In this document: piece after piece, positions 2,260 through 23,333 of the stretch
How the letters are laid out: each line of letters opens with the position of its first letter
Position numbering within the stretch: position 1 is the first letter of the stretch
IMG/VR virus record: IMGVR_UViG_3300032516_000177
Location: 1 to 25,813 of that record
Strand: one strand, 5' to 3'
Source of the DNA: a virus
Length of the DNA stretch: 25,813 nt
Translations under genes and position numbers: made by a program
Notes under the pieces: generated by a model
Database searches by the model: none
What the model was told of the DNA's origin: nothing
Seen by the model: only the letters and a program-made list of their open reading frames with translations

Positions 2260-2613
2260 ATGTACAAAATTAGAAAAGAATTTCATTTTAGTGCTAGCCA
2301 CATTCTTAATCATTTACCGGAGGATCATCCCTGTTCAAGATTGCATGGTCATAATTACATTATTACTTGTGAGTTTGCAAGTAAAGAACTTAATGATGTA
2401 GGATTTGTAATTGATTATCGTGCTCTTGAACCTATAAAGAAGTTTATTGATGATAACTTTGATCATAGACATTTAAATGATCATATGGCAAGAAATCCTA
2501 CTGCTGAAAATATAGCAAGGCTACTCTTTACCTTGTTTTGTGGTGAGTTCCCAACACTTGTTGCAGTAGAAGTAAGTGAAACTCCTAAAACAAGTGCTAG
2601 ATATGAATGTTAA
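2260..2613 (+). CDS. queD: 6-carboxy-5,6,7,8-tetrahydropterin synthase
   Basis: A 117-aa member of the 6-pyruvoyl-tetrahydropterin synthase/QueD family, close to the usual length. It turns dihydroneopterin triphosphate into 6-carboxytetrahydropterin, the second step of 7-deazaguanine synthesis. Visible residues are the zinc-binding histidines H14 (FSASH), H29 and H31 (LHGH), the catalytic cysteine C25 between them, DHRHLND (68-74), PTAENIA (80-86) and E107 (SETP). It is followed with an 11-bp overlap by QueE, which acts next. The start follows a 12-bp gap with no Shine-Dalgarno. Confidence 0.9.
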   Translation: MYKIRKEFHFSASHILNHLPEDHPCSRLHGHNYIITCEFASKELNDVGFVIDYRALEPIKKFIDDNFDHRHLNDHMARNPTAENIARLLFTLFCGEFPTLVAVEVSETPKTSARYEC

Positions 2614-3373
2614 ACAAATTATATCAGCGGAAGACTATAAGATTAGAAAAGTCTTTCATAAGGAGGGAGGGAACTATCTTAACATCTCTGAATTCTATTA
2701 TGATACTATCCAAGGGGAAGGAATATATCTTGGGCATCCTGCAGCATTTATAAGATTGCAGAATTGTACAATGAATTGTTCCTATTGTGATACTACAGAA
2801 GTATGGAGGTATGGGAGCCCTTATTCCTTTTATGAGATAAATGAATTAATGCTAGCACATGATATTCTTTATCAATTAAAACATGGTCAACATCTGGTTT
2901 TCACAGGGGGGAGTCCTTTATTACAGCAAGATAAGATTAAAAAGTTTCTTATCATGTTTAATAAAACTTTTAACTTTCTTCCCTTTGTTGAAATTGAAAA
3001 TGAATGTACTCTTTTACCAAGTGATAATTTAATTCCCTTTGTTAATTGTTGGAATAACTCACCTAAACTTGCAGAAAGTGGAGTCCCTATTGAGATTAGA
3101 TATCGAGAACAAATAATTAAAAAATTGGCAGGGTTACAAAATTCATGGTTTAAGTTCGTTGTATCTATTGAAGATGAATGGGATGAAATTGATAATTATT
3201 ATCTTTTTAATAAATTGATTAAAAAAGAACAGATTATATTAATGCCATTAGGAACAACAAGAATTGAATTAGAATCAAATCGTGAGGCAGTTCTAAAAAT
3301 AGCCGTGGAACAAGGAGTTAGGTATTGTTCAAGGGAACATATTGTGCTTTGGGATAAGCGCATTGGGGTGTAA
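2603..3373 (+). CDS. queE: 7-carboxy-7-deazaguanine synthase (radical SAM)
   Basis: A 256-aa QueE: it rearranges 6-carboxytetrahydropterin into 7-carboxy-7-deazaguanine (CDG) using a [4Fe-4S] cluster and S-adenosylmethionine. The family signatures are QGEG (37-40), the cluster motif C55-x3-C59-x2-C62 in NCTMNCSYCDT, and GGSP (102-105) in place of the common GGEP. The C-terminus ends in REHIVLWDKRIGV. I chose the ATG at 2603 over a GTG at 2576 because it gives a short overlap with queD and the QGEG motif then sits at a normal distance from the N-terminus. It is the last gene before the second conserved promoter-like element. Confidence 0.88.
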   Translation: MNVKQIISAEDYKIRKVFHKEGGNYLNISEFYYDTIQGEGIYLGHPAAFIRLQNCTMNCSYCDTTEVWRYGSPYSFYEINELMLAHDILYQLKHGQHLVFTGGSPLLQQDKIKKFLIMFNKTFNFLPFVEIENECTLLPSDNLIPFVNCWNNSPKLAESGVPIEIRYREQIIKKLAGLQNSWFKFVVSIEDEWDEIDNYYLFNKLIKKEQIILMPLGTTRIELESNREAVLKIAVEQGVRYCSREHIVLWDKRIGV

Positions 3374-3380
3374 CGGGCGT

Positions 3381-3404
3381 GAACCAAATAATTTTTGTAT
3401 AATA
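3381..3404 (+). promoter_or_regulatory. Conserved 24-nt promoter-like element, copy 2 (P2)
   Basis: Identical over 24 nt to the elements at 245 and 14179, with TATAAT at 3398-3403. It lies 7 bp after queE and about 43 bp before the ATG at 3447. Unlike the other copies, its 3' part is in a palindrome (TATAATA at 3398-3404, TGCG, TATTATA at 3409-3415) that could be an operator or a hairpin at the start of the transcript. It would drive the modification and polymerase genes up to 14175. Confidence 0.7.
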
Positions 3405-3446
3405 TGCGTATTATATTTTTATTGTTTAATTTAAAATTTGAATTTT

Positions 3447-4289
3447 ATGGCAAACGAAAAGCAGTTGCGTAAAGCCGCAGCAGAATTGAATTCCGTATTG
3501 TTTGAGACAGGAGATGAGCAAGCAATTGACATCAAAGCAAGTGTAAAAGTCCTCATCGAGGCTATTAAAGAGGCAGCATCACTTCTTACCCCTGATGATG
3601 ACATCTCTGAAGTTACTCAAGCAGTTATTGATGAACTTGTTCCTCCTACTCCTAAGAAAGGAAAAGTTGGAAAAGCAAAACCTCCTGTGGAGGAAGAAGA
3701 GGATGAGGATGAGGGTGAACCAGAAGATGAGGATGAGGATGAGGATGAGGGTGAACCAGAAGATGAGGAAGAAAAGGATCTCAAAGCGCAAGTTGAAGAC
3801 GCAGAGAAACTAGCTGACTTAAAAATTCTTGTTAAAGAAAACAAAGAGTTTAAAACCCTTAAGGCTGATTTAGCCTCCTACAAGAAGGCTGATGATCTAA
3901 GAGATGACATGCTGGCTATTCTTGAGGAAGAAGAAGAGGAGGATATTCCTGAAAAACTTCACAAGAAAAACATTGCTAAGAAAAAAGTGAATTCTAAGGA
4001 AGATGAAGATGAAGATGAGGAAGAAACTCCTAAGAAGAAAAGAGCCGGTGGTCCTCCAAAAGGTGTAAAACCCAGTTTTAAGAAAGAGGGTTCGATGGCA
4101 CAGTTTATGGATGAAACTGTTAAAGAAGGAGGAACTTGGGAAGAAATATTTGCTGTAATAAGCAAAGAAGCCAAGAAACGTGGTGTGAAAACAACTCTGT
4201 CTACAATTAAAGCACACACAAAATTCCGGCTCAGTAAGGACGCTAAGTTCCTTGGAAAACTCAAAATGAAAGAGGATGGAATTGAGTGA
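3447..4289 (+). CDS. Acidic low-complexity protein with C-terminal basic domain, unknown function
   Basis: A 280-aa protein in three parts. Residues 1-75 look helical and folded. Residues 76-210 alternate between highly acidic runs ([11 protein letters not shown] repeats, then EEEEEE and EDEDEDEEE) and basic patches (KKR, KKKV). Residues 211-280 form a compact, lysine-rich domain with TWEEIF and [13 protein letters not shown] that could bind nucleic acid or protein. The charge pattern resembles the linker of the SSB-like protein at 15928. I start at the ATG at 3447 and not at the in-frame TTG at 3438. It is the first gene after P2, so it is probably made in quantity. Function unknown. Confidence 0.7.
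3708..3770 (+). repeat. Tandem 36-bp-period repeat coding for DEGEPEDE
   Basis: A 26-bp sequence starting GATGAGGGTGAACC at 3708 recurs at 3744, a 36-bp (12-codon) period, with GAT/GAG triplets between. It encodes repeated acidic residues around GEP. Replication slippage is the likely origin, and copy number may vary between related phages. Confidence 0.6.
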
Positions 4290-4827
4290 GACACTCATTC
4301 AATCAATTTTACGACAACTGGGAGAGGATCCTGAGCGAGAAGGTCTTAAGGATACTCCCAGTAGAGTCGTAAAATCCTGGAGTGAATTATATGCTGGGTA
4401 TGGTAAAGACGTATCCAGCATCTTCACTATTTTTACAGATGTTCACGATTATTGTCAAATAGTGATATGTAAAAATATAGAAATGTATTCTATTTGTGAG
4501 CATCATATGTTACCTTTTATTGGAAGAGCTCATGTAGCATATCTACCAGATAAAAAAGTAATAGGATTATCCAAACTTGCACGACTTGTTGATATTTATG
4601 CAAGACGTTTACAAATACAAGAACGAATTGGTGAACAAGTAACCGACGCACTTATGCAATATCTACAACCAAAGGCAGCAGCATGTATCATTGAAGCATC
4701 ACATCTTTGTATGCGTATGCGAGGAGTAGGTAAACAAGATTCAACAATGGTAACTTCTTCAATGAAAGGAGAGTTTCTACAGGATACTGCTATGAGGTCT
4801 GAATTATTACACCTACTTAAACTATGA
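4276..4827 (+). CDS. folE: GTP cyclohydrolase I
   Basis: A 183-aa type I GTP cyclohydrolase, which converts GTP to dihydroneopterin triphosphate and formate and supplies QueD. Zinc and catalytic residues are C74-E-H76-H77 in [10 protein letters not shown], and H143 with C145 in [26 protein letters not shown] (26-35) is also typical. The length is near that of compact bacterial FolE. It overlaps the acidic protein by 14 bp and the next gene by 4 bp. In a phage with QueD, QueE, QueC and a DpdA-like gene, its role is most likely deazaguanine supply and not folate. Confidence 0.93.
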
Positions 4828-5846
4828 TTAATTCACTAACATATCTAACACGTGGCTGTCCAAGACATTGTGAATATTGTGCCCTACGTGAAGCGGTAGG
4901 TATTGGTAAACAGTTAGACGTGCGAGGGTGGAAGGAAGCCTTTCGTATATTACATGAACTTAATGTGGATTTTAATCTTGTACTTGGTAACGAAACATGG
5001 TTGTTAGGTACAGGTTTAATTGATATATTTAAAGATAATAAAATTCCTTACGCCCTTTACACCACTTGCCCAGAACCAATATTTAGTAAACATAAATATG
5101 AATTATTTGACTCAGGAGTTATTGATAATTTATCCTGTGGAATTGATTATCCCATTATCGAGGGATTATTAATTGATGATGATTCCTATGCTAAATCTAA
5201 ATCAGCTTGGTGGGGTTTTAAATGGATTAAACAATTTTACCCAGAGGTTGACACGCAAGGTACTATTACCATTCATAAAAAGAATTTACCATACGTCTTG
5301 GCTCTTGTGAAGTCCTTATCTCAAATAGGAGTCTTTGTAGGGATTAATTTTATACATTGGAATAGAGATGGTAAGTATGATTTCTTTCCAAAGAAGGAAG
5401 AGATTGCCGATTTGTTGTTTACAAAGGATGATTATATTGATGTTACAAGGATAATGTATCAAGTAAGAAACCTACCGGGTAATTTATTACAGAATCCAGA
5501 ATTTATTGCCCAACCCCCTTCCTTATTACTTAATATGGGATGGCACTGCCACGGTAATCCTTATGGTGGACCAACTGTTGATTCCGATGGGAAGTTAAGA
5601 TGTTGTGGTTATAGAAGGGGGGAAGAGACTTCTAAATTATCTATCTTTGATTTACCTAAAAGATTACTTGATTGGAAGTGGGCTGTTTGGGAAGATGCAA
5701 TGCGCTGTCCTGGATGTGCTTGGTCATATCCTTGGATGTATAATTACTGGGAAAGAAATGATCGTGAGTTGGGTAAGAAAGTTTTTTCTCAGCACGCTGG
5801 AAAACATATCGATGAAAATAAATGGTCTAATAGAAAAATAAAATGA
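4824..5846 (+). CDS. Radical SAM protein with extra C-terminal cysteines, unknown substrate
   Basis: A 340-aa radical SAM enzyme. The cluster motif C12-x3-C16-x2-C19 (GCPRHCEYC) lies unusually close to the N-terminus. The C-terminal third has a second set of cysteines ([31 protein letters not shown]) like the auxiliary-cluster region of SPASM or related proteins. It is distinct from QueE. It overlaps folE and the methyltransferase gene by 4 bp each, within a run containing queC, a deacetylase, a glycosyltransferase and dpdA-like genes. Its context suggests it alters a deazaguanine nucleotide or the modified base, but the substrate cannot be read from the sequence. Confidence 0.75.
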
Positions 5847-6517
5847 AAAGTTACGACGAAGAAACTATCGAATTGTTCAACTTATCCATCATAGAAGATG
5901 AATTTGATGATAAATTACAAAACAATGATATCTATGATGGATTTGTTTCTGGGGGTAAAGAATTGGAAAGATTAATTTCTACAAAGGATATTATGACAGA
6001 TAAATCCCCGGATGAACTTCATGTATTAAATGTTGGTGCTGGGCAGGCTGATTTAAAAGTTATATTCCCACCCAATTCATTAATTATTAATTTAGAACCG
6101 TGTCCTCAAAGGGTGACAGAAAATACAATTGAAGGATGGTGTGAGGCAGTACCAGAAGATTTGGTATTACAAGACGTCGTTATATGTTGGGGAGTGCTTT
6201 GCTTTGTAAGAAGCCTGCCTGAAACTCTTATAAATTTTAATCGGGTTTTATTTAGAGGGGGGTATTTAATTGTTGATGTGGTTACATTTTCCACAATGCC
6301 GTTACCACAAACAGTTCATCCTGACTCCTTTATACGATATGTAAGACTATTTGGATTTGAATTAGAAGAAAGAATAAACTTCGGACCAGAGTATCATCAA
6401 AGGGTTGGTTATCGTTTTAAACTGGTAGAGGAATTCAATTACAAGAGATTAAGAATGCCACAATGTGGTGAAAAAATAAATAACTATCTACCAGAAAGGG
6501 ACTGGTTCATGAGATAA
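5843..6517 (+). CDS. Class I SAM-dependent methyltransferase-like protein
   Basis: A 224-aa Rossmann-fold protein. Motif I is VLNVGAGQADL (61-71), followed by the acidic strand IINLEPCP (81-88), then DVVICWGVLCFV, and LFRGGYLIVDVV, the usual motif after the post-motif III helix in class I methyltransferases. There is no DPPY or NPPY motif, so a classical DNA adenine or cytosine-N4 methyltransferase is unlikely; the fold is closer to small-molecule methyltransferases. It lies between the radical SAM gene and queC with a 4-bp overlap and a 1-bp gap. A role in tailoring the deazaguanine base is possible but unproven. Confidence 0.65.
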   Translation: MKSYDEETIELFNLSIIEDEFDDKLQNNDIYDGFVSGGKELERLISTKDIMTDKSPDELHVLNVGAGQADLKVIFPPNSLIINLEPCPQRVTENTIEGWCEAVPEDLVLQDVVICWGVLCFVRSLPETLINFNRVLFRGGYLIVDVVTFSTMPLPQTVHPDSFIRYVRLFGFELEERINFGPEYHQRVGYRFKLVEEFNYKRLRMPQCGEKINNYLPERDWFMR

Positions 6518-6518
6518 T

Positions 6519-7067
6519 ATGAATAAAAAGTATGATTTACTTATCCTCTTTAGTGGGGGATACGATAGCACTTTGCTTGTACAATTGGCAATGAACATGG
6601 ACGCTAATATTCTATGTTTACTATTTGACTACGGACAAAAGCATATTATAGAATTAGAATATGCAAAGGAGTTTTGTTTAAAGAGAAATATTCCTTACGA
6701 GATAATTAAGCTAAGTTTACCAATTGCCTCAAACCTTACGGATGAAAAGAAAACATATGAAGGAGTCAATATACATCATGTACCAGCAAGAAATCTTATG
6801 TTTCTTTCTATCGCAGCAAGTATTGCAGAGAGTAAAGAAATACTTACAATTTGGTATGGTGCTAATTATGAGGATAGAGAAAAACTCTTCCCAGATTGTT
6901 ACCAGGAGTGGATTTTTAAACTAAATGAATTACTTGAGATTAATGGAAGTCTTAAAATTACAGTTGAAGCTCCTTTACTTGGTATGTCTAAAGAAACAAT
7001 AAAAACATTGGCAAAAGTTTTTAATATTAATGATGATAAAGTATTTAGCGGTTATGAAAAAGAGTAA
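6519..7067 (+). CDS. queC: QueC-like 7-cyano-7-deazaguanine synthase lacking the zinc site
   Basis: A 182-aa N-type ATP pyrophosphatase. QueC turns CDG into the amide (ADG) and then into preQ0, using ATP and ammonia. SGGYDST (P-loop-like, 12-18), FDYGQKH (37-43) and VPARNLMFLSIA are clear family signatures, as is YPDC-like FPDCYQEW. Typical QueC is about 220-230 aa and ends with a CY...CGxCxxC zinc site. Here the protein stops at VFSGYEKE: the first cysteine is replaced by glycine and the other three are absent. No cysteine motif appears in the overlapping downstream frame, so a simple frameshift is not the explanation. It may make ADG, act only in part, or use another stabilising element. 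Confidence 0.82.
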   Translation: MNKKYDLLILFSGGYDSTLLVQLAMNMDANILCLLFDYGQKHIIELEYAKEFCLKRNIPYEIIKLSLPIASNLTDEKKTYEGVNIHHVPARNLMFLSIAASIAESKEILTIWYGANYEDREKLFPDCYQEWIFKLNELLEINGSLKITVEAPLLGMSKETIKTLAKVFNINDDKVFSGYEKE

Positions 7068-9840: not shown

Positions 9841-10520
9841 AAAGGACAAAGGTAAAAGAAATTATTCTTCCACTCTTTACTCTACAAAGGTCAAAAAGAG
9901 TTCTTAAGTCAGGAGTACAGACTTTAAAGGAAGATGTTGAAACTTTTATGATCCCTACCCTACAAAAGTATGGATTTGATGGAAAGTTAGTTCTAGCAAA
10001 GGAGGTAGATAAAAAACATGCTAAGAAAGATTATGAAAGCTATTCACCCGCAAGAACAAGTGCAAGACAATTGTTATATGGTGCTGAAGCAGGGTGGTTT
10101 CTTGAGATTTGGAAGCAAGGTAGGCCAAAGACAAAACTTGTTGTAAAACCATTTGTGAGGGAAGATTTAAAAGCAATAAGAAATTTACCAAGGTATAATT
10201 TAAGAACGATTGTTGCTCAAATGCTAATGACTAATGCCCATCCTCAGGCTCGTATAAAAGCAATATTAGATAAGTTTTATGCATTAGATTTGACATTCTT
10301 AATTATGACAAAAACAGGAATGTTTTGGTTGGGTAAATATCGTTCTATACCATTTGATCAATATGATTTAACCTATCGGAAGGATAAAAAAACATTAGAT
10401 AGATTACGTGTTAAGAATGGTTTTCAAAAAGGAAAGATTCATAGTATTAAAGATTGTTTGGTAGAAGAATTAAAGAAAGAGTTATATTTCTTCAATAAAA
10501 ATAATAAATATGAAAGTTAA
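9837..10520 (+). CDS. Hypothetical basic protein between the DpdA-like and clamp genes
   Basis: A 227-aa lysine- and arginine-rich protein with no motif I recognise. It starts MKRTKVKEI, one of the recurrent M-x-R-T-K N-termini in this window. The middle has aromatic beta-like segments (AGWFLEIWKQ, TLTFLIMTKTGMFWLGKYRS). The pattern is that of a nucleic-acid-binding protein but no fold can be assigned. It overlaps the DpdA-like gene by 4 bp and the clamp gene by 11 bp, which suggests translation coupled to both. It may help DNA modification or replication. Confidence 0.65.
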   Translation: MKRTKVKEIILPLFTLQRSKRVLKSGVQTLKEDVETFMIPTLQKYGFDGKLVLAKEVDKKHAKKDYESYSPARTSARQLLYGAEAGWFLEIWKQGRPKTKLVVKPFVREDLKAIRNLPRYNLRTIVAQMLMTNAHPQARIKAILDKFYALDLTFLIMTKTGMFWLGKYRSIPFDQYDLTYRKDKKTLDRLRVKNGFQKGKIHSIKDCLVEELKKELYFFNKNNKYES

Positions 10521-11532
10521 TAAAGCACAACTACAAAAAGCACTTGAAATTGTCAAGCCAGGACTTGCCAGTAAAGAGCAAATTGAACAATCAACATCCT
10601 TTGCTTTTATAAAGGGAAGGGTGGTTACTTATAATGATGAGATTAGTGTTTCACATCCTGTAAAAGGCCTAGAATTAGAAGGAGCCATTTTAGCAGAGAA
10701 TCTTTATAAGTTTTTAACCAAAATTAAAAAGGAAGAGATTGAATTAGAATTAAAAGACAATGAAATTATTCTAACATCTGAAAAGGCTAAGGCAGGATTA
10801 CTTCTACAAAAGGAAATTAAACTTCCTTTGGAGGAAGGGGTTACTGAAAAGGGGGAATGGTATGATCTACCCGAACACTTTCTAACAGACCTTGCTTTTG
10901 TAATGACAATTTGTGGGAAAGATTTAAGTCGTCCTATTTTAACGGCTTGTCATATAAATAAGGCGGGATTTATTGAAGGTTCTGATGGTTATAGGATAGC
11001 CCGTTGTGAATTAGGAGAGAAATTACCAGTAGATACTTTTCTGTTACCAGCAAAATCCGCAGTTGAGGTAGTAAAAATGAAACCAATTCAGATGGCTGAA
11101 GGAAAAGGATGGATTCATTTTAAAACACCAGCAAGAACAATTATTCACTGTCGTATCCTTTTAGGGGATAGATATCCTACAACAGGATCCTGGTTTAATG
11201 AGGATGGTATTTTAGTTAGGCTTCCAAAAATAACTAATGAAATATTAGCAAGGGCACAGGTATTTGCAAAGAGGGATCATTTACTTGATGAGTCAATTAC
11301 ACTTTCTTTTGAGAAAGGACTTTTTTGTATGACATCCCAATCCGACACAGGTTGGTTTAAAGAGGAGGCAGACATGCGATTTACAAGTACACCTGTTAAG
11401 ATTGATGTAACCCCATACCTGTTAAAAAGTATATTGGAAGAGACAAGCACATTTAAATATACTGAAGATAAACTTACCTTTAAAGGTGAAAGGTGGTATT
11501 ATGTCACAACACTAAGACATCCCAAGAAATGA
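10510..11532 (+). CDS. dnaN: DNA polymerase sliding clamp (beta-clamp-like)
   Basis: A 340-aa divergent beta-type clamp, a little shorter than bacterial DnaN (about 366 aa). Domain 1 starts MKVNKAQLQKALEIVKPGL; the central section LSRPILTACHINKAGFIEGSDGYRIARCEL followed by LPVDTFLLPAKSAVEVVKM is the recognisable domain 2 to 3 region of DnaN; the C-terminal part ends in a short basic tail. It would encircle DNA and tether the polymerase encoded just downstream. The clamp loader is the gene at 14215. Its stop overlaps the next start by 4 bp. Confidence 0.8.
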   Translation: MKVNKAQLQKALEIVKPGLASKEQIEQSTSFAFIKGRVVTYNDEISVSHPVKGLELEGAILAENLYKFLTKIKKEEIELELKDNEIILTSEKAKAGLLLQKEIKLPLEEGVTEKGEWYDLPEHFLTDLAFVMTICGKDLSRPILTACHINKAGFIEGSDGYRIARCELGEKLPVDTFLLPAKSAVEVVKMKPIQMAEGKGWIHFKTPARTIIHCRILLGDRYPTTGSWFNEDGILVRLPKITNEILARAQVFAKRDHLLDESITLSFEKGLFCMTSQSDTGWFKEEADMRFTSTPVKIDVTPYLLKSILEETSTFKYTEDKLTFKGERWYYVTTLRHPKK

Positions 11533-12779
11533 TAGAAGGGTTTTTTACAAAGAAAGAAACGGAATCAAAGTCCCGACCTGCAGGTAAATCTCAATCATGT
11601 GTCTCCTGCGGATTATACAAGGATTGTGACTCCCCAAAAATGGAACCTTATGGTAACTTCAAAAAGAAGATACTTAATATTGGTGAGGCTCCTGGGGAAT
11701 ATGAGGATAGGAATGGAAAACCTTGGCAGGGTAAGATGGGAAGAATGCTACAACAAACCTATGAAGACTTAGATGTTGATTTGTTTGAGGATTGTTTAAA
11801 TATAAATTCAGTAAACTGTCGACCAAAAGATAAGCAAGGTCATAATAGAGCTCCTTCCAATGTAGAGATCGATTGCTGCCGTAAGAGAGTATTCAGTATA
11901 ATAGAGGAATACAAACCCAAGGTAATACTTTTATTAGGAAATGCCCCCTTATATAGCCTTATTGGACATAGATGGAAAAAGGACTTGGGTGGGATTACAA
12001 AGTGGAGAGGATTTACTATTCCTGATCAAGACTTCAAGACTTGGTTATGCCCTACATTTCATCCCAGTTATATTGAAAGGGCTAATAGTATTTCTAACTA
12101 TAAAGGTGAACCTATTGAAAATGTTATTTGGAAACAGGATTTAAAGGAAGCGTTTGGTATGGCAAAGATTCCCTTTCCTGTTTATGTTGAACCTGTAATT
12201 GAAATTATAGAAGACCTATCAGTATTAAAGAAAATAAAATATGAGAGTGCTTTTGATTATGAAACAACTGGATTAAAGCCTCACGCCGTAGGACATAGAA
12301 TTATTTGTGTTTCAATAGCTGATACAGAAAACCATGCGTATGTGTTTTTAATGCCAAAGACAAGAAAAGAAAGGGAGCCATTCATACAATATTTAATAAA
12401 CCCAGAGTTAAAAAAAGTTGCTCAAAATATGAAGTATGAACATTGTTGGAGTAAAGTAAGACTGGGAGTTGACGTACAAGGTTGGGAATGGGATACAATG
12501 CTAGCAACTCATTTGTTTGATAATAGACCTGGGATTTGTGGATTAAAGTTTCAAGTCTATGTACAATTTGGAGTTGTTGATTACTCCAGTGATGTAGATC
12601 CTTACATGAAAGCAGTAGATAATATAAATGCTAATTCATTAAATAAGATGCTTGACTTATTAAAAACACCAAATGGTAAGGAGGTATTATGTAAATATTG
12701 TGGATTAGATAGCATAAATGAATTGAGACTTGCAAATAGACAACGAATGAATTTATTACCTTTTTACTATGTACTATGA
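11529..12779 (+). CDS. Uracil-DNA glycosylase (family 4-like) fused to 3'-5' exonuclease domain
   Basis: A 416-aa two-domain protein. Residues 20-210 are a family 4/5-like UDG: cysteines C24, C27, C97 and C116/C117 are placed to hold a [4Fe-4S] cluster, motif A is GEAPGEYED (52-60) with GKPWQGKMG, and motif B is HPS (178-180). Residues 235-405 are the proofreading exonuclease of family A polymerases: D243-x-E245 (Exo I), N300 region (Exo II, with E304 where Asp is common), D322, and Y390-x3-D394 (Exo III). A polymerase with an N-terminal UDG-like domain is known in SPO1. The frame ends at a 7-bp duplication where the polymerase begins. The start is the ATG overlapping the clamp stop, not an upstream GTG at 11493. 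Confidence 0.82.
   Translation: MIEGFFTKKETESKSRPAGKSQSCVSCGLYKDCDSPKMEPYGNFKKKILNIGEAPGEYEDRNGKPWQGKMGRMLQQTYEDLDVDLFEDCLNINSVNCRPKDKQGHNRAPSNVEIDCCRKRVFSIIEEYKPKVILLLGNAPLYSLIGHRWKKDLGGITKWRGFTIPDQDFKTWLCPTFHPSYIERANSISNYKGEPIENVIWKQDLKEAFGMAKIPFPVYVEPVIEIIEDLSVLKKIKYESAFDYETTGLKPHAVGHRIICVSIADTENHAYVFLMPKTRKEREPFIQYLINPELKKVAQNMKYEHCWSKVRLGVDVQGWEWDTMLATHLFDNRPGICGLKFQVYVQFGVVDYSSDVDPYMKAVDNINANSLNKMLDLLKTPNGKEVLCKYCGLDSINELRLANRQRMNLLPFYYVL
12765..12778 (+). repeat. 7-bp tandem duplication TACTATG at the exonuclease/polymerase junction
   Basis: TACTATG at 12765-12771 is repeated at 12772-12778. Taking out one copy joins the upstream frame (LLPFYY) to the downstream frame (EPEIMNAY) in one continuous UDG-exo-polymerase ORF. 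The duplication creates both the TGA that ends the upstream gene and the ATG-bearing overlap that starts the polymerase. Confidence 0.85.
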
Positions 12780-14175
12780 ACCAGAAATAATGAATGCTTA
12801 TAAACTCCTTCACGAAGGAGTATTAGCCTTCGCCCATGCTGAACAGCAAGGGATTCGTATTGATATGGAGTATGTTACTCTTAAAATGAAACATCTAACA
12901 AGAACTATTGAAAAGTTAGAAGCCAATTTTAGTAAAACCAAATTCTTTAGACATTGGCAACATACTGTTAAGGGAAAAGTCAACATTCATTCTAATGTAC
13001 AATTGGCTAATTTCCTTTATAAAATTAAAGGGATTCAAATAGAAAAGGAAACTGTCTCAGGACAGGGTGCTACGGATGAAGAAGCCCTGCGAAAGATGGA
13101 CATCCCTGAATTAAGTGACTTACTACAAATTCGTAAACTTAAAAAAATACGTGATACTTACCTGGATGGATTTATAAGAGAACAAGTTGATGGATATATA
13201 CATCCTTTTTTCAATCTACATTTAGTTAAAACATATCGTTCAAGTTCTGATAGTCCTAATTTCCAGAATATTCCTAAACGTGATGAGGAAGCAATGATGA
13301 TTGTTCGGAGAGCACTTTGTCCCCGTCCTGGGCATCAGTTATTAGAATTAGATTATTCGGGGCTTGAAGTACGTATTGCTGCCTGTTATCATAAGGATAA
13401 GACTATGTTAGCCTATATAAACAATCCTGCCTCAGATATGCATACGGATATGGCAAAACAGATATTTATCATAGATAAATTTAATAAGGATCTTCCATCA
13501 CATAATGTATTAAGACAAGCTGTCAAAAACGGATTTGTCTTTCCAGAGTTCTACGGGGACTATTATAAAAATTGTGCTGAGAGTATGGCTTGCTCGTGGG
13601 GTAAATTAGGCAGGGGTGTATGGAAACCTGGACAGGGAATAGACATGCCTGAAGGACATTTAGCTGATCATTTTATTAAAAAGGGAATTAAATCATTTCC
13701 AAAGTTTGTTGACCATGTACAAAAGATAGAAAAGGATTTTTGGGGTAGGAGGTTCCCTGAGTATGCTAAGTGGAAAGAAACTTGGTGGAGAGAGTACAAG
13801 AAAAAAGGATACCTTATAATGCATACAGGATTTAGATGTAGTGGAATTATGAGTAGAAATGATGTAATTAACTATCCCGTACAAGGATCTGCATTTCATT
13901 GTTTATTGTGGAGTTTTATTGAGTTAGATAAGAGGTTAGAAAGAAAAGAAATGAATTCCAAAATTGTAGGTCAAGTACATGACTCTATCATAATAGATAT
14001 TGACCCAAGAGAATTGGAAGAGGTTGTCAAACTTGTTTATAAAATTACATGTCAAGATATACAGAAAACCTGGCCTTGGATAATTGTTCCACTTGATATA
14101 GAAATAGAATTATGTCCAATAGATGGTAGTTGGGCAGAGAAAGAGAAGTATGAATTTAGATATTTCTTTAGTTAA
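12769..14175 (+). CDS. polA: DNA polymerase family A, polymerase domain
   Basis: A 468-aa polymerase module. The thumb region (11-140) includes AEQQGIRID; TYRSSSDSPNFQNIPKRD (155-172) is the conserved DNA-binding stretch; motif A is LDYSGLEVR (194-202) with metal ligand D195; motif B/O-helix is R249-x3-K253-NGFVFPEFYG, one residue longer than the E. coli helix; motif C is QVHDS with H404-D405. About 60 extra residues lie between motif B and NYPVQGSA. It overlaps the exonuclease gene by 11 bp. The natural partner domain is the UDG-exonuclease upstream, so the two products probably act together. The gene is followed directly by the third promoter-like element. Confidence 0.9.
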   Translation: MYYEPEIMNAYKLLHEGVLAFAHAEQQGIRIDMEYVTLKMKHLTRTIEKLEANFSKTKFFRHWQHTVKGKVNIHSNVQLANFLYKIKGIQIEKETVSGQGATDEEALRKMDIPELSDLLQIRKLKKIRDTYLDGFIREQVDGYIHPFFNLHLVKTYRSSSDSPNFQNIPKRDEEAMMIVRRALCPRPGHQLLELDYSGLEVRIAACYHKDKTMLAYINNPASDMHTDMAKQIFIIDKFNKDLPSHNVLRQAVKNGFVFPEFYGDYYKNCAESMACSWGKLGRGVWKPGQGIDMPEGHLADHFIKKGIKSFPKFVDHVQKIEKDFWGRRFPEYAKWKETWWREYKKKGYLIMHTGFRCSGIMSRNDVINYPVQGSAFHCLLWSFIELDKRLERKEMNSKIVGQVHDSIIIDIDPRELEEVVKLVYKITCQDIQKTWPWIIVPLDIEIELCPIDGSWAEKEKYEFRYFFS

Positions 14176-14214: not shown

Positions 14215-15126
14215 ATGAGCCTATACCTAAAATACAGACCAAGGAGATTAGAACGGATTAGAGGTAATATAAATCTAATTAAAACTTTGGGTGCTTTACT
14301 TCAACAGGAAGACTGTCCACGTACCTTTTTACTTCATGGACCTACTGGTTGTGGTAAAACTACCATAGCCAGAATAATGGCGAATAGACTGGGGAGTACA
14401 GGAATTGATATACGAGAAATAAACTCTGCTGACTTTAGAGGGATTGACACAATACGGGATGTCATACAAAAAAGTCAGTATATGCCAGTTGAAAGTAAAT
14501 GTACATTTTGGATAATTGATGAGTGTCATAAACTGACAGGGGATGCACAGAATGCACTATTAAAAATATTGGAGGATACACCAGATCAAGTATATTTCGT
14601 CCTATGTACTACTGAACCCCAGAAACTAATTGCCACTATAAAAGGTAGGTGTAGTCAATTCCAAGTAAAACCTTTGTCAGAGGAAGAGATGCTTTCTTTA
14701 TTAAAAGATGTAGTTTCAAAGGAAGGAGATGAACTTGAGCAAGAAGTATATGATATAATTATAAGGGACAGCACAGGTTTACCAAGGAACGCATTACAAA
14801 TACTTGAACAGGTATTAAATGCTCCAGAGGAAGAGAGATTAAAAGTTGCTGAACAAGCACAGTTTGAATATTCACAAGCTATTGAATTATGTAGAGCTCT
14901 GTTAAATAAATCACCGTGGAAGGTAATAAATAAAATATTGGCAGGGTTAAAAGAACAAGAGGCTGAAACAATTAGAAGGATTGTATTGGGGTATTGTCAA
15001 GCGGTATTATTAAAAACGGATAATTATCAAGCGGGAGTTGTATTAGAAGAATTTATCAGTCCATTTTATGATTCAGGATTTCCACAATTAGTATATGCTT
15101 GTTATTCAATAATTAAAACCAAATAA
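14215..15126 (+). CDS. DNA polymerase clamp loader subunit (DnaX/RFC-like AAA+ ATPase)
   Basis: A 303-aa AAA+ protein. It starts with the typical LYLKYRPRRL box, then Walker A GPTGCGKT (42-49), Walker B WIIDE (99-103) with ECHKL, sensor 1 in VLCTTEPQ (129-136), and the arginine-finger motif GRCSQF (144-149). Residues 150-210 are the lid domain (TGLPRNALQILEQ), and the rest is the collar-like C-terminus. It would load the clamp encoded at 10510. Only one loader subunit is visible, so the ring may be a homo-oligomer or use a second subunit elsewhere. It is the first gene after P3. Confidence 0.88.
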   Translation: MSLYLKYRPRRLERIRGNINLIKTLGALLQQEDCPRTFLLHGPTGCGKTTIARIMANRLGSTGIDIREINSADFRGIDTIRDVIQKSQYMPVESKCTFWIIDECHKLTGDAQNALLKILEDTPDQVYFVLCTTEPQKLIATIKGRCSQFQVKPLSEEEMLSLLKDVVSKEGDELEQEVYDIIIRDSTGLPRNALQILEQVLNAPEEERLKVAEQAQFEYSQAIELCRALLNKSPWKVINKILAGLKEQEAETIRRIVLGYCQAVLLKTDNYQAGVVLEEFISPFYDSGFPQLVYACYSIIKTK

Positions 15127-15780: not shown

Positions 15781-15950
15781 TGTGGATAGATTTACTTTGT
15801 ATAGGAATTGTCTTCCTTTTACTCATGTATATTGGAAGTAGATTGCAAATGAAAGCATGGTTAAAAGAACTTGACTTACATTTGGGTAAGAAGTTTGTTG
15901 ATTATATTAATTCTAAAAAAGAGAAAAATGGTACAGAAGAGAAAAAGTAA
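15780..15950 (+). CDS. Small single-span membrane protein (56 aa)
   Basis: The ATG at 15780 overlaps the preceding stop and the frame ends with TAA at 15948-15950, 23 bp into the SSB-like gene. The N-terminus has a hydrophobic segment (LLCIGIVFLLLMYIG, residues 5-19), followed by a basic, charged tail ending NGTEEKK. It is a membrane-anchored peptide of unknown function. The fit into a gap of about 150 bp between two well-supported genes, with overlaps at both ends, supports it. Confidence 0.6.
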   Translation: MWIDLLCIGIVFLLLMYIGSRLQMKAWLKELDLHLGKKFVDYINSKKEKNGTEEKK

Positions 15951-16995
15951 TTTTAGTTTCAAAGGCAAAGTCGCTGACAATGCTAAGAGTCAAAAAAGAG
16001 CCTCTTCATCCTATGGGTATTTATCCCTTCCAAAAGGAGTAAATATATTTAGCCCAGAAATGAAAGGGAGTGTTTATTTTGATATTATACCCTATGTGGT
16101 ATCAGATTCAAAACATCCTGATAAAAATGTTGATAAAGGAACGGCTCTTGTAGGAGATCCTTGGTGGAAACGACCTTTTAAAATACATCGTAATGTCGGG
16201 GCATCCAATGATGTGGTAGTTTGTTTAACAAGTATTGGTAAAAGGTGTCCTATATGTGAATATAAGGCAAAGAGAGCAAAAGAAGGAGCAGAGAGGGAGG
16301 AACTTGATACAATGAAAGCATCATCAAGATCCTTGTATTTACTAAGACCTAAGAAAAGTAAAAAGTTTGAAGATGATTATCACATCTTTGATATCTCAAC
16401 GTATAACTTTCAAGACCTTCTAACTCAAGAATTAGAAGAGAATGAGGAGCATGAGATTTTCCCATCTCTTGATGAAGGGGAAACTTTAAAGGTAAGATTT
16501 GAAGAAAAAACAATAGCAGGAGGTCAACCTTTTCCTGTTGCAGAAAGAATTGATTTCGTGGAAAGAGAAGAACAATATAGTTGGGATGATTTGGAGGATA
16601 GTCCTAATCTTGATGAAATGCTTATTATTCTTTCCTATGATGAACTACGTGCTAAATTCTTTGAGGAGGAAGAGGAAGAAACTGGAGGTAAATTAAGGGA
16701 AGCTAAGGATGAGGAAGAAGAGGATGAGGATGAGGAAGAAAAACCTGCTCGTAAAAAGAAATCAATTAAGGATGAAACAGAAGAAGAGGATGAGGAAGAT
16801 GAGGATGAAAAACCTCCAATGAAAAGAAAACCAAAAAAGATAGTTGAAGAAGAGGAAGAAGAGGAAGAAAAACCAACTAAGAAAAATAAATGTCCTGAGG
16901 GATATAAATTTGGTGTAGATACTGAAAAGTATGATGAATGTGCCGATTGTGAAATCTGGGACGAATGTCTCGAAGCTAAAAGAAAGAAAAGATAA
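15928..16995 (+). CDS. Single-stranded DNA-binding protein (T4 gp32-like) with acidic tail
   Basis: A 355-aa protein. Residues 30-230 look like a gp32-type OB-fold core with a zinc motif: KIHRNV (H87) and C107-PI-C110 (RCPICEYKA). From about 235 to 318 it is an acidic tail (runs of E and D) broken by basic KKK and KRK patches, as expected for recruiting partner proteins. The end (C322, C338, C341, C347; DECADCEIWDEC) is a second cysteine cluster that may bind metal. The ATG at 15928 is preferred; an upstream TTG at 15871 would lie inside the small membrane-protein gene. Located just before RecA, as gp32-like genes often are. Confidence 0.75.
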   Translation: MVQKRKSNFSFKGKVADNAKSQKRASSSYGYLSLPKGVNIFSPEMKGSVYFDIIPYVVSDSKHPDKNVDKGTALVGDPWWKRPFKIHRNVGASNDVVVCLTSIGKRCPICEYKAKRAKEGAEREELDTMKASSRSLYLLRPKKSKKFEDDYHIFDISTYNFQDLLTQELEENEEHEIFPSLDEGETLKVRFEEKTIAGGQPFPVAERIDFVEREEQYSWDDLEDSPNLDEMLIILSYDELRAKFFEEEEEETGGKLREAKDEEEEDEDEEEKPARKKKSIKDETEEEDEEDEDEKPPMKRKPKKIVEEEEEEEEKPTKKNKCPEGYKFGVDTEKYDECADCEIWDECLEAKRKKR

Positions 16996-19330: not shown

Positions 19331-19801
19331 ATGGAACGCACAAGAAGAAAAGTACCTAATTTACGAATACTTGCATTAGATCCTGCAACACATTGTGGGT
19401 ATGCAATAAGTCGAGATTTATATGGTGTGTGGGATTTAACACCTAAACGTGATGAAAGTATTGGTATGAGATTAATTCGTCTACGTTCTAAGCTAAATGA
19501 AATACTTACCACTGAACATATAAATTTGGTTGTATTTGAACGGTCGGGTGGTCAACATGTCAACGCTGTTATTGTCCAATCTGAAATACAGGGACAAATT
19601 AAAGTTATTTGTGAAGACCATAAAATTGAATATAGGGCATATTCTAGTCAAGAAATTAAGAAGTTTGCTACAGGAAAAGGAAATTGTGGTAAACCATTAA
19701 TGATACAATGTGCTCGGGAGAAGTTAGGTTATCCTGGTAAAAATGATAATGAGGCAGATGCCTTATGGTTGTTAGAACTTGCAAAACACGATTACAAATG
19801 A
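19331..19801 (+). CDS. ruvC: RuvC-like Holliday junction resolvase
   Basis: A 156-aa RNase H-fold nuclease. The acidic residues are D17 in ILALDPATHCGYA, E70 in VVFERSGG, and D139 with D143 in GKNDNEADALWLLELA. The length is close to bacterial RuvC (about 170 aa). It would cut four-way junctions made during recombination-dependent replication, or debranch DNA before packaging. The protein begins MERTRR, the Arg variant of the shared N-terminal motif. Its ATG follows the radical SAM stop with no gap, and it overlaps the SbcC-like gene by 4 bp. Confidence 0.85.
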   Translation: MERTRRKVPNLRILALDPATHCGYAISRDLYGVWDLTPKRDESIGMRLIRLRSKLNEILTTEHINLVVFERSGGQHVNAVIVQSEIQGQIKVICEDHKIEYRAYSSQEIKKFATGKGNCGKPLMIQCAREKLGYPGKNDNEADALWLLELAKHDYK

Positions 19802-20844
19802 TAGAATCTTTACATATAACTAATTTTCAAAGTCATGCAGACACAAACATGGAATTCCACTCTGGAGTCAATATTATTGTGGGAAGCACAGATTCAGGTA
19901 AATCGGCAATCATTAGGGCTATCCATTGGATTTCCAGAAATAGACCTTCTGGTAATGCAATACGATCCTGGTGGGAAGGAGAAACCTCAGTTACTATTAA
20001 AACAGAAGAGAATGCAGTTTCTCGGATTAAAGGTAAGACGGATCTTTATAAACTTACAGGGAGGGAAAGAAGTCTCAAATTTAAGGCTTTTGGTAGTAAT
20101 GTACCAGAAGAGATTACTGAGGTACTCAATCTCAACGAAGTCAACATACAATATCAATTAGATAGTCCTTTCTTATTAAGTGAAACTCCTGGTAAGGTAG
20201 CAGAGCATTTTAACAAGGTTGCTAAACTTGACAAGATAGATATCTCTACAAGTAACATCAATAGTGCCATACGAAAATTAACTTCTGATATTGATTATCA
20301 AGAAGGGCAGGTAGAAACTTTAAAAGAAGAATTAGATAAGTTTATTCACCTTGAGAAGTTTGAAATTGATGTAGAGGTGTTAGAAGAGACAAATAAAAGA
20401 TGGTTATCAAAAATACTCAATAAAAATAGTTTAGATAAACTAATAAGAAACATCAAACATATTGATATATTAATTGATAATTCTAAACCTTTACTTGATT
20501 TTGAAAAACCCTTACACAATATCTTTGAATGGAGAGACCAAAAAGAAGTAAAAGAAAACTCACGTAAAAATTTAGATAATATATTAGACCAAATTGAATA
20601 TGTTAAATCAAAAATAGAAACCCAACAAGACATTCTTAGTATAGAAAAACTTGTAAATAATTTATTGGGATTATATGAGGAGTTAAATACATTAAAATCC
20701 GATAAAATGCTGTTAAATAAGGCACTTTCTTATATAAATAGTACAATTACAAAGTTAAGTATAGCAAACTCCTTAGAAGCTAAATTTCAAACTGAATTAG
20801 ACAAAGTAAAAATATGCCCCTTTTGTGGTAACAAAATAAAGTAA
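19798..20844 (+). CDS. SbcC/Rad50-like ATPase, N-terminal half ending at the zinc hook
   Basis: A 348-aa protein with Walker A GSTDSGKS (29-36) in the usual N-terminal lobe, followed by a lobe ending near 135 and about 190 residues of coiled coil. It ends CPFCGNKIK (C340 and C343), the CxxC zinc hook that normally lies mid-protein at the tip of the coil. Walker B and the signature motif are missing and occur in a separate protein at 22716. So the Rad50-like ATPase is made as two chains. The ATG at 19798 (overlap with ruvC) is preferred over an upstream GTG. It works with the SbcD-like nuclease encoded next. Confidence 0.8.
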   Translation: MIESLHITNFQSHADTNMEFHSGVNIIVGSTDSGKSAIIRAIHWISRNRPSGNAIRSWWEGETSVTIKTEENAVSRIKGKTDLYKLTGRERSLKFKAFGSNVPEEITEVLNLNEVNIQYQLDSPFLLSETPGKVAEHFNKVAKLDKIDISTSNINSAIRKLTSDIDYQEGQVETLKEELDKFIHLEKFEIDVEVLEETNKRWLSKILNKNSLDKLIRNIKHIDILIDNSKPLLDFEKPLHNIFEWRDQKEVKENSRKNLDNILDQIEYVKSKIETQQDILSIEKLVNNLLGLYEELNTLKSDKMLLNKALSYINSTITKLSIANSLEAKFQTELDKVKICPFCGNKIK

Positions 20845-21719
20845 TGGAAAGAACAAAAATAAATAAGAAGCCTGATGCCATTCTTACAAGTGATTGGCAT
20901 TTAAGAGAAGATACCCCAATTTGTTTTATAGGTGATTTTCAAAAGGAACAATGGGATACGGTAATGTTTATAAAAAGACTACAAGAAAAATATGATTGTC
21001 CTATAATTCATGCTGGAGATATGTTTCATCATTGGAAACCATCTCCTTGGTTATTAACTATGACAATAATTTATCTACCTGAAAAATTCTATACCATTTA
21101 TGGACAACATGATTTACCTCAACATAATTTAAATTTAATTGAAAAATGTGGAGTTCATAATTTAGATATTTCCCAAAAATTAACAGTTTGTAATGGTGTT
21201 CATTATGGACAAACACCTTGGTCTGGATTATTTGCTCATTCTACTTTACCTTTATCTATTTTAGTTTGGCATCATCTTACATATTTATCTAAACCATTTC
21301 CAGGGGCAGAAGGAGGAATGGCTGAGGGAATACTTAGAAAATATCCAGAATTTAAATTGATTGTGACTGGAGATAATCATCAAAGTTTTACAACGGAGTA
21401 TAAAGGAAGAAGGTTAGTTAATCCTGGAAACATTACAAGACAGACGGCAGATCAGATAAATTTTAAACCAAGAGTGGCTTTATGGTATGCAGAAGATAAT
21501 TCAATTACATGGATTCCTTTACCTATGCAAGAAGGGGTTATTAGCAGGGAGTATTTAGATATTAAAGAGCAAAGAGATAAAAGGATAGATGCCTTTGTAA
21601 GCAAACTAAATGGAGAATATATGACAGAATTATCTTTTGAACAAAACTTGGAAAACTTCTTTGCCACAAATAATATAAGAGATAATATTAAACAAATCAT
21701 TTATAAATCACTTGAATAA
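20844..21719 (+). CDS. SbcD/Mre11-like metallophosphoesterase nuclease
   Basis: A 291-aa calcineurin-fold phosphoesterase. Metal-binding motifs in order: SDWH (16-19), HAGDMFH (56-62), GQHD (87-90, replacing GNHD), VWHHLTY and VTGDNHQSF (in place of GHxH). Paired with the Rad50-like ATPase it would process DNA ends, as T4 gp46/gp47 do. It begins MERTKINKK, the shared N-terminal motif. It lies between the two halves of the ATPase gene and overlaps each neighbour by one base. Confidence 0.83.
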   Translation: MERTKINKKPDAILTSDWHLREDTPICFIGDFQKEQWDTVMFIKRLQEKYDCPIIHAGDMFHHWKPSPWLLTMTIIYLPEKFYTIYGQHDLPQHNLNLIEKCGVHNLDISQKLTVCNGVHYGQTPWSGLFAHSTLPLSILVWHHLTYLSKPFPGAEGGMAEGILRKYPEFKLIVTGDNHQSFTTEYKGRRLVNPGNITRQTADQINFKPRVALWYAEDNSITWIPLPMQEGVISREYLDIKEQRDKRIDAFVSKLNGEYMTELSFEQNLENFFATNNIRDNIKQIIYKSLE

Positions 21720-22548: not shown

Positions 22549-22744
22549 ATTTAAATTAGCACTAATTAGTATGTTGTCCAATCCTAATGTGGTACTTATA
22601 GATATGAATGTTGCAAATGATTTGGAAACTATTCCCCTCGACACATTTGCAGGATACCTTACTCGTACACCGAATGGAATTTCACATTATCAAATTACCA
22701 TATACAATCCTAAAAATGACGGACGTAAAAAGTCTAAGAAATAA
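22532..22744 (+). CDS. Small hypothetical protein (70 aa)
   Basis: A 70-aa protein, basic at both ends (MKKESRFK, NDGRKKSKK), with a hydrophobic beta-like middle (NPNVVLIDMNVANDLETIPLDTFAGYL). Its 3' end overlaps the C-terminal SbcC-like gene by 29 bp. No family recognised. Overlaps on both sides support coupled translation. Confidence 0.5.
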   Translation: MKKESRFKLALISMLSNPNVVLIDMNVANDLETIPLDTFAGYLTRTPNGISHYQITIYNPKNDGRKKSKK

Positions 22745-23333
22745 ATTAGAACAGCAAAAGGGACAAGCCCTTCAAATACAAACATCCCTGTCTGCTTTAC
22801 AAGAACAATTTAAAGAAAAGAAACGTTCTTTAATTCGTCATGAACGAGCCAGGGAGATTGTTCGTAAAGTTGGATTAAAAACTCAACAGCAATTACAGGT
22901 AAATATATCTGATATTACTTCTCTTGCTCTTGAAGCTGTATTTCCCAATCCTTATGAATTAAAAGTAAATTTTGTTCAACGAAGAAACAAAACAGAATGT
23001 GACTTAATATTTGTAAGAGATGGAAATGAGATTGATCCTATTACAGCAAGTGGTGTAGGGGCAATTGACGTAGCATCATTTGCCCTTAGAATAGCAAGTT
23101 GGAGTATGACTAAACCTCATTCAAGAAATACAATTATATTGGATGAACCGTTTAGATTTTTAAGTGAGAATTATCAAGAAAAAGCAAGTATAATGCTCAA
23201 GGAGATAAGTAAAAAATTAAATATTCAATTCATAATAGTCACTCATGAAGAAGTATTGACCAGTTATGCCGATAAGATTTTCAATGTATCAATAAGAAAA
23301 GGAAGGAGTAAAGTAAATGATAAAGAAAATTAA
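22716..23333 (+). CDS. SbcC/Rad50-like ATPase, C-terminal half
   Basis: A 205-aa protein that supplies the part absent from the product at 19798. Residues 1-60 are a short coiled coil. SGVGAIDVASFALRIA (112-127) matches the place of the ABC signature (usually LSGGE), Walker B is TIILDEPF (139-146), followed by the D-loop RFLS, and H177 in IVTHEE is the switch histidine. I chose the ATG at 22716 because residues translated upstream of it lie in another gene's frame. There is no second CxxC. The coil is much shorter than that of the N-terminal half (about 55 against 190 residues). Confidence 0.78.
   Translation: MTDVKSLRNKLEQQKGQALQIQTSLSALQEQFKEKKRSLIRHERAREIVRKVGLKTQQQLQVNISDITSLALEAVFPNPYELKVNFVQRRNKTECDLIFVRDGNEIDPITASGVGAIDVASFALRIASWSMTKPHSRNTIILDEPFRFLSENYQEKASIMLKEISKKLNIQFIIVTHEEVLTSYADKIFNVSIRKGRSKVNDKEN

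Follow-up and report, generated by a model that had tools for sequence, protein, structure and literature searches.

Family-A DNA polymerases normally carry proofreading and synthesis in one chain. In the SPO1-type enzymes (Bacillus phage SPO1 gp31, Thermus phage phiLo with PDB entry 9qhs, Lysinibacillus phage LysYB1 and Edwardsiella phage ZHS), this chain comprises a uracil-DNA glycosylase (UDG), an exonuclease and a polymerase. Here, we analyzed a virus record of 25.8 kb (IMG/VR record IMGVR_UViG_3300032516_000177, positions 1 to 25,813; the whole stretch is called the window hereafter), which shares these three parts and their order with the SPO1-type enzymes but encodes them in two open reading frames (ORFs) in different frames. 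The SPO1-type phages show 22–27% identity to the UDG-exonuclease of the window, and phage ZHS, whose enzyme is fused, resembles the window in that a clamp gene precedes the enzyme gene and a gamma/tau gene follows shortly. Fused UDG-exonuclease-polymerase enzymes are already known, as is one GenBank record with two such genes. We conclude that the window very probably encodes its family-A polymerase as two genes and two chains, an arrangement inherited within a tailed-phage-like lineage, and that a 7-bp repeat at the gene junction is coincidental. The locus contains the following features:

11529 to 12779, + strand: UDG-exonuclease subunit, 416 aa, stop codon TGA at 12777-12779 (Pfam, AlphaFold2, PDB fold match)
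11646 to 12092, + strand: uracil-DNA-glycosylase domain, type 4-like, residues 40-188 (PF03167, E=1e-19; type-4 UDG matches)
12225 to 12530, + strand: 3'-5' exonuclease domain match, residues 233-334 (PF01612, E=2e-6)
12756 to 12776, + strand: C-terminal tail LPFYYVL; the chain ends right after LPF in 53 of 76 split loci, and the tail is disordered in the model
12765 to 12778, + strand: tandem pair TACTATG TACTATG (sequence search, shuffles, junction alignment)
12769 to 14175, + strand: family-A DNA polymerase subunit of 468 aa, restricted to the polymerase domain, with an ATG start (PF00476, E=9e-49)

The polymerase ORF overlaps the UDG-exonuclease ORF by 11 nucleotides (nt). The three Pfam matches (PF03167, PF01612, PF00476) bear out the identities that a preliminary description of this DNA had given to the two genes, namely a UDG-exonuclease and a DNA polymerase. 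In the UDG-exonuclease alignment (A1), Cys27, Cys97 and Cys117 are invariant and Cys24 is kept in at least 90% of the sequences; by its fold and these four Fe-S-type cysteines, the UDG part classes as a type-4 UDG with a predicted cluster. Asp243, Glu245 and Asp394 of the same chain are invariant in 29 aligned sequences. In the polymerase, Asp195, Arg249, Lys253, Tyr262, His404 and Asp405 are invariant in 23 sequences, and we take Asp195, Arg249, Lys253, Tyr262 and Asp405 to be the catalytic carboxylates and finger residues of a family-A polymerase. With PF00476, the invariant residues and a Pol I fold, the second ORF is a family-A DNA polymerase.

AlphaFold2 models of the two chains reached a mean predicted local distance difference test score (pLDDT) of 90.5 for the UDG-exonuclease and 86.6 for the polymerase. 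The top PDB fold match of the UDG-exonuclease, the phiLo family-A polymerase 9qhs, is longer and consists of one chain; the polymerase of the window aligns over its full length (approx. 460 columns) to the large fragments of Taq and Bst Pol I. As modeled, both chains form complete domains, and from the structure matches and the confident models of both chains the break is placed at the exonuclease/polymerase domain boundary. Residues 411-416 of the UDG-exonuclease, with pLDDT below 50, form a disordered tail. The ratio of nonsynonymous to synonymous variation (pN/pS), determined against four relatives, is approx. 0.20–0.30 for both genes, which points to purifying selection acting on each of them.

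Relatives were collected with a polymerase scan, yielding 54 related viral loci, and a scan with the UDG-exonuclease alignment, from which 80 more were taken (the best 80 of at least 446). Together with the window locus and nine stretches of phage records, the collection comprises 144 loci (numbered L below); 18 lacked one partner, leaving 126, and removal of 31 sequence duplicates left 95 distinct loci. UDG-exonuclease and polymerase are separate, with the same domain boundary, in 76 of the 95 (window included) and fused in 19, i.e., in 14 IMG/VR contigs (of 90 distinct IMG/VR loci) and five GenBank phages (L059, L060, L062, L063 and L064). SPO1 (L063) has one gene with an intron, and L011 is split. 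A scan of bacterial genomes gave mostly distant matches and a few contigs of metagenome-assembled genomes, among them L145 (split, with the tip LPF discussed below), L149 (split) and L150 (fused).

The window lies deep among split relatives. A tree was calculated with 80 rows, from which 19 named loci were omitted as partial, intein-bearing, near-duplicate or intron-bearing (SPO1); L075, L076, L090 and L102 were kept, although they overlap or are near-identical to some of the omitted loci. The window groups with L002 and L003 with a support of 100 in the Shimodaira-Hasegawa-like approximate likelihood-ratio test, and this group is joined by L005 and L065 with a support of 99; all of these are split. 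The same is true of the nearest relatives in general (L002, L003, L005, L065, L004 and L007), including the two nearest. Along the tree, split and fused states changed at least nine times, and a single clade for the fused rows inside the lineage was rejected by the approximately unbiased test (p=3e-39; quick tree, LG+G4). The two states have, thus, replaced each other repeatedly. The four outgroup rows are all fused and sit on long branches. To judge from the tree, the split is old and lineage-wide, and the window is placed deep within the split group.

The distance between the split genes varies widely. Gaps range from −20 to over 2000 nt, and the relative frame varies, too: 27 of the 76 pairs have gaps of at most 10 nt, four of 11–99 nt, 23 of 100–499 nt and 22 of at least 500 nt. 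With over 10 nt between the genes in 49 of the 76 pairs, and at least 500 nt in 22, splitting is not tied to the junction sequence. The gap is also a landing place for other genes in L003, L015, L017, L027, L032, L035, L037, L041 and L045, with inserts of up to approx. 2.3 kb (for L093, an apparent 5.3 kb is an unchecked figure). Read by eye, the ORFs in the gaps are methyltransferase-like, radical-SAM-like, lysozyme-like or small.

A second common property of the lineage is the end of the exonuclease chain. The terminal Ile/Leu-Pro-Phe typical of the bacterial single-stranded DNA-binding protein (SSB) is found, as an exact Leu-Pro-Phe (LPF), in 53 of the 76 split loci. It is absent as a terminus from the window, which is the sole locus among the 54 LPF-bearing split ones where further residues follow (LPFYYVL, four extra). 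LPF and stop are spelled by 20 codon strings, with five codons used for Leu, four for Pro and two for Phe, and all three stops; consequently, the tip is conserved as protein and not as a DNA signal. Among 1599 different ORF termini in these loci (ORFs of at least 80 aa), 54 are [LIVM]PF, and all but eight of these belong to split exonucleases. The eight others are four fused polymerases (L034, L064, L096, L105), three proteins resembling the single-stranded DNA-binding protein gp32 (L042, L047, L083) and one small ORF in L108, which ends in DVPF and has no family assigned. In the four fused proteins, the tip is the end of the polymerase, and none is left at the inner joint of fused proteins.

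A complete gp32-like gene is present in 62 distinct loci; of these, the 41 with a tip on exonuclease or polymerase never have one on the gp32-like protein, as opposed to three of the 21 others (Fisher p=0.035). The mutual exclusion is only suggestive, since L042 and L044, which are among these three, are near-identical. Adding gp32-like relatives gave no new tip lineage, and the gp32-like tip is labile, as L230 ends in DIPY and L229 in DIDA. According to PMC10143822, bacterial SSB ends in a DIPF tip (DDDIPF), of which IPF is required for partner binding. By analogy, we tentatively read the LPF tip as an SSB-like docking peptide, a reading that falls slightly short of an even chance. A more doubtful extension would see it as a movable replication docking peptide of the lineage, located on the split exonuclease, on the polymerase end upon re-fusion or on the gp32-like protein and marking the chain that recruits a common partner. 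The window would then be a natural variant with a capped tip, and the lineage would break multi-domain DNA enzymes at their joints, including Rad50/SbcC.

The main rival to the docking reading, that the LPF tail is a peptide binding the sliding clamp, appears rather unlikely to us. C-terminal clamp-binding peptides do occur in other polymerases, and a clamp gene adjoins in the window. However, the usual clamp-binding motif begins with Gln, which is present at the matching position −6 in just 4 of the 53 tips. The tip is, moreover, strictly terminal and also found on gp32-like proteins, and the polymerase of Yersinia phage P744 has it with no clamp annotated.

Concerning the origin of the split, a homing endonuclease, intron or intein that divided the polymerase gene and has since departed is an unlikely explanation. 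It could draw on the genes that land in the relatives' gap, where the insert of L027 looks like a GIY-YIG endonuclease by eye, and on the polymerase inteins present in the lineage (L049, L050, L051). Against it, no mobile element lies at the window junction, and most inserts, again by eye, are methyltransferases, radical-SAM or small proteins, not endonucleases. The inteins in the polymerase subunit of the three loci occupy two sites, at approx. residue 158 and approx. residues 201–222, and were called by eye from a Cys start and an HN-Ser or KN-Cys end. Similarly long polymerases occur in L094 and L101, and in L143 (6004-8314) the UDG-exonuclease ORF exceeds the usual length by approx. 1 kb, possibly due to an intein in the exonuclease domain.

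The unusual tail of the window could also be a sequencing or assembly error, in which case the true phage would stop right after LPF and its genes would be split as in the relatives. The non-terminal LPF, unique to the window, would fit this, and a search of the viral contig collection for the exact junction found it in no second contig. On the other hand, both genes are otherwise intact and seem to be under purifying selection, and an error would alter just the four-residue tail; we regard such an error as improbable. Spacing across the junction equals that of L072 and L121 in an alignment of close-spaced relatives. The codon after LPF is TAC in the window, in contrast to TAA and TGA in L072 and L121, respectively, i.e., the first TAC of the repeat pair sits at the stop codon of the relatives. 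The stretch separating the LPF codons from a conserved Ala codon of the polymerase measures 31 nt in the window and 13–41 nt in 18 other close-spaced loci, with 32 nt in six of these. The window junction contains no extra heptamer. The second TACTATG covers codons 2-3 of the polymerase plus the initial base of codon 4; relatives have codons 2-4 as well. Loss of the stop after LPF would be the simplest account, with reading then ending at the TGA inside the polymerase start.

The preliminary description had instead attributed the split to a recent 7-bp tandem duplication in a formerly fused gene, which we judge highly improbable. Its observations hold: TACTATGTACTATG is present exactly at 12765-12778, its single occurrence in the window, and by the coordinates, removal of 7 nt would bring both ORFs into one frame. 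The repeat is exact, its unit length shifts the frame, and fused relatives exist among the IMG/VR loci. Its conclusion does not hold, as the split is inherited, with the same break point in 76 of the 95 distinct loci, and the window is nested among split relatives, the six nearest included, with a junction of typical length that is not 7 nt longer than theirs. Further, TACTATGTACTATG was found in none of the 54 other related viral loci compared. Such repeats are also expected by chance. In 200 dinucleotide-preserving shuffles of the window, the mean number of non-simple tandem 7-mer pairs was 2.87 (standard deviation 1.76, maximum 8) vs. five in the window, and at least one tandem 7-mer pair was present in 180 of the 200 shuffles. 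Short tandem pairs are common in the window, since it contains 32 tandem pairs of 6–8-mers in all vs. 12.9 in the shuffles. The expected count of 0.00 for the exact word TACTATGTACTATG is the wrong test, because this word was chosen after it had been sighted. The TACTATG repeat is real, yet at chance level, and is a coincidence, not the cause of the gene split; a duplication as the cause is ruled out by the split relatives, the tree and the junction length.

Equally improbable is a programmed +1 frameshift at the overlap yielding a fused polymerase besides the short exonuclease: relative to the exonuclease, the polymerase is in the +1 frame, which is open back to 12751, but nothing at the junction is conserved for it, since gaps and frames vary and 45 of the 76 pairs are at least 100 nt apart. 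Of the three alternatives offered in the preliminary description, the two separate chains are retained, whereas neither the +1 shift nor the assembly error is needed; the comparison with homologs it proposed shows mostly split relatives, in favor of two chains and against the duplication.

Several points weigh against an inherited two-chain polymerase with an SSB-like tip. The relatives are metagenomic contigs, and the ratio of 76:19 is no population estimate, because the second scan contributed the best 80 of at least 446; near-duplicates, such as L018/L019, are counted. Physical pairing of the two chains is a prediction. The LPF tip is absent from 22 of the 76 split loci and is, thus, not essential everywhere, and its acidity falls below that of a true SSB tip, position −5 being Asp or Asn in 29 of 53 and the other positions mixed. 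As the search found no second contig with this junction, the stop codon may conceivably have been lost to a base error, which would change the tail and leave the split unchanged.

Nevertheless, an inherited two-gene polymerase accounts for the locus as follows. The first gene would provide a uracil-glycosylase and proofreading 3'-5' exonuclease subunit and the second a Klenow-like polymerase domain, presumably translated in tandem via the overlapping stop and start. A junction like that of the relatives would have lost the stop after LPF, and translation of the exonuclease would thereby continue for four residues within the beginning of the polymerase gene. Both chains probably act jointly at the clamp. 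The normal LPF tip of the exonuclease subunit may serve as a docking peptide, which in the window would be capped by YYVL.

Replication genes are found on both sides:

10510 to 11532, + strand: sliding clamp (processivity factor), directly upstream (phrog_947, E=6e-28)
14215 to 15126, + strand: clamp-loader ATPase, directly downstream and kept downstream of the polymerase in relatives (phrog_5846, E=2e-64)
15928 to 16995, + strand: gp32-like single-stranded DNA-binding protein, without LPF tip in the window (profile A4 against gp32 structures)

A clamp homolog is present in 66 of the 80 tree loci, mostly just upstream of the UDG-exonuclease, and the synteny with clamp and clamp loader is common to split and fused relatives. 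The gp32 label is a weak profile match, A4 hitting 2a1k, 2atq (E=0.017), 8gme and 1gpc (four of five), and the protein has no Pfam match.

Two further observations were made in the window. Rad50/SbcC is also encoded by two genes (19777-20841, 20844-21719 and 22608-23333 in the window; also L228, L229, L234, L236, L237 and L238), in the order of an N-half ending just after a CPxC zinc-hook-like motif, an SbcD-like gene and a separate C-half. Counting the window, nine distinct loci have the complete N-half, which ends past CPxC in seven of them (L231 and L235 have no CPxC); in the eight loci found besides the window, the C-half invariably forms an ORF of its own. Positions 2260-7067 contain 7-deazaguanine-type genes (QueD-like PTPS, radical SAM, GTP cyclohydrolase I, QueC-like); therefore, the phage DNA may carry modified guanine.

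In the open-licence literature searched, we found no paper on a family-A polymerase split at this boundary and none on an SSB-like tip of a phage polymerase or exonuclease. Compared with the bacterial SSB tip, as described in PMC10143822, the tip of the relatives shares the terminal Leu/Ile-Pro-Phe, and that of the window lies on a tail disordered in the model. Unlike the bacterial tip, the relatives' tip is on an exonuclease or polymerase chain and less acidic, and the window's is capped by four residues. If LPF is an SSB-type docking peptide, this would explain how a proofreading subunit detached from the polymerase stays at the fork and show through which pocket it does so. Further, a large phage lineage with separate, sometimes re-fused genes offers natural pairs for testing the purpose of the covalent link. 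Two described cases come closest to the split itself. The OM43 phages MEP401 and MEP402 have a family-A PolA in two ORFs (PMC10580990); their break interrupts the polymerase domain itself, a small ORF separates the two parts and an intron is suspected, in contrast to the exonuclease/polymerase boundary in the window. The Caudoviricetes isolate MW202554 (ctLwi270), with 24–32% identity to the best query and no LPF tip, has two adjoining genes annotated 'DNA polymerase' in GenBank, a UDG-exonuclease at 1727-2986 and a polymerase at 3138-4364. They are split at the same point as in the window in a far lineage, which does not imply a link by descent between the two splits.

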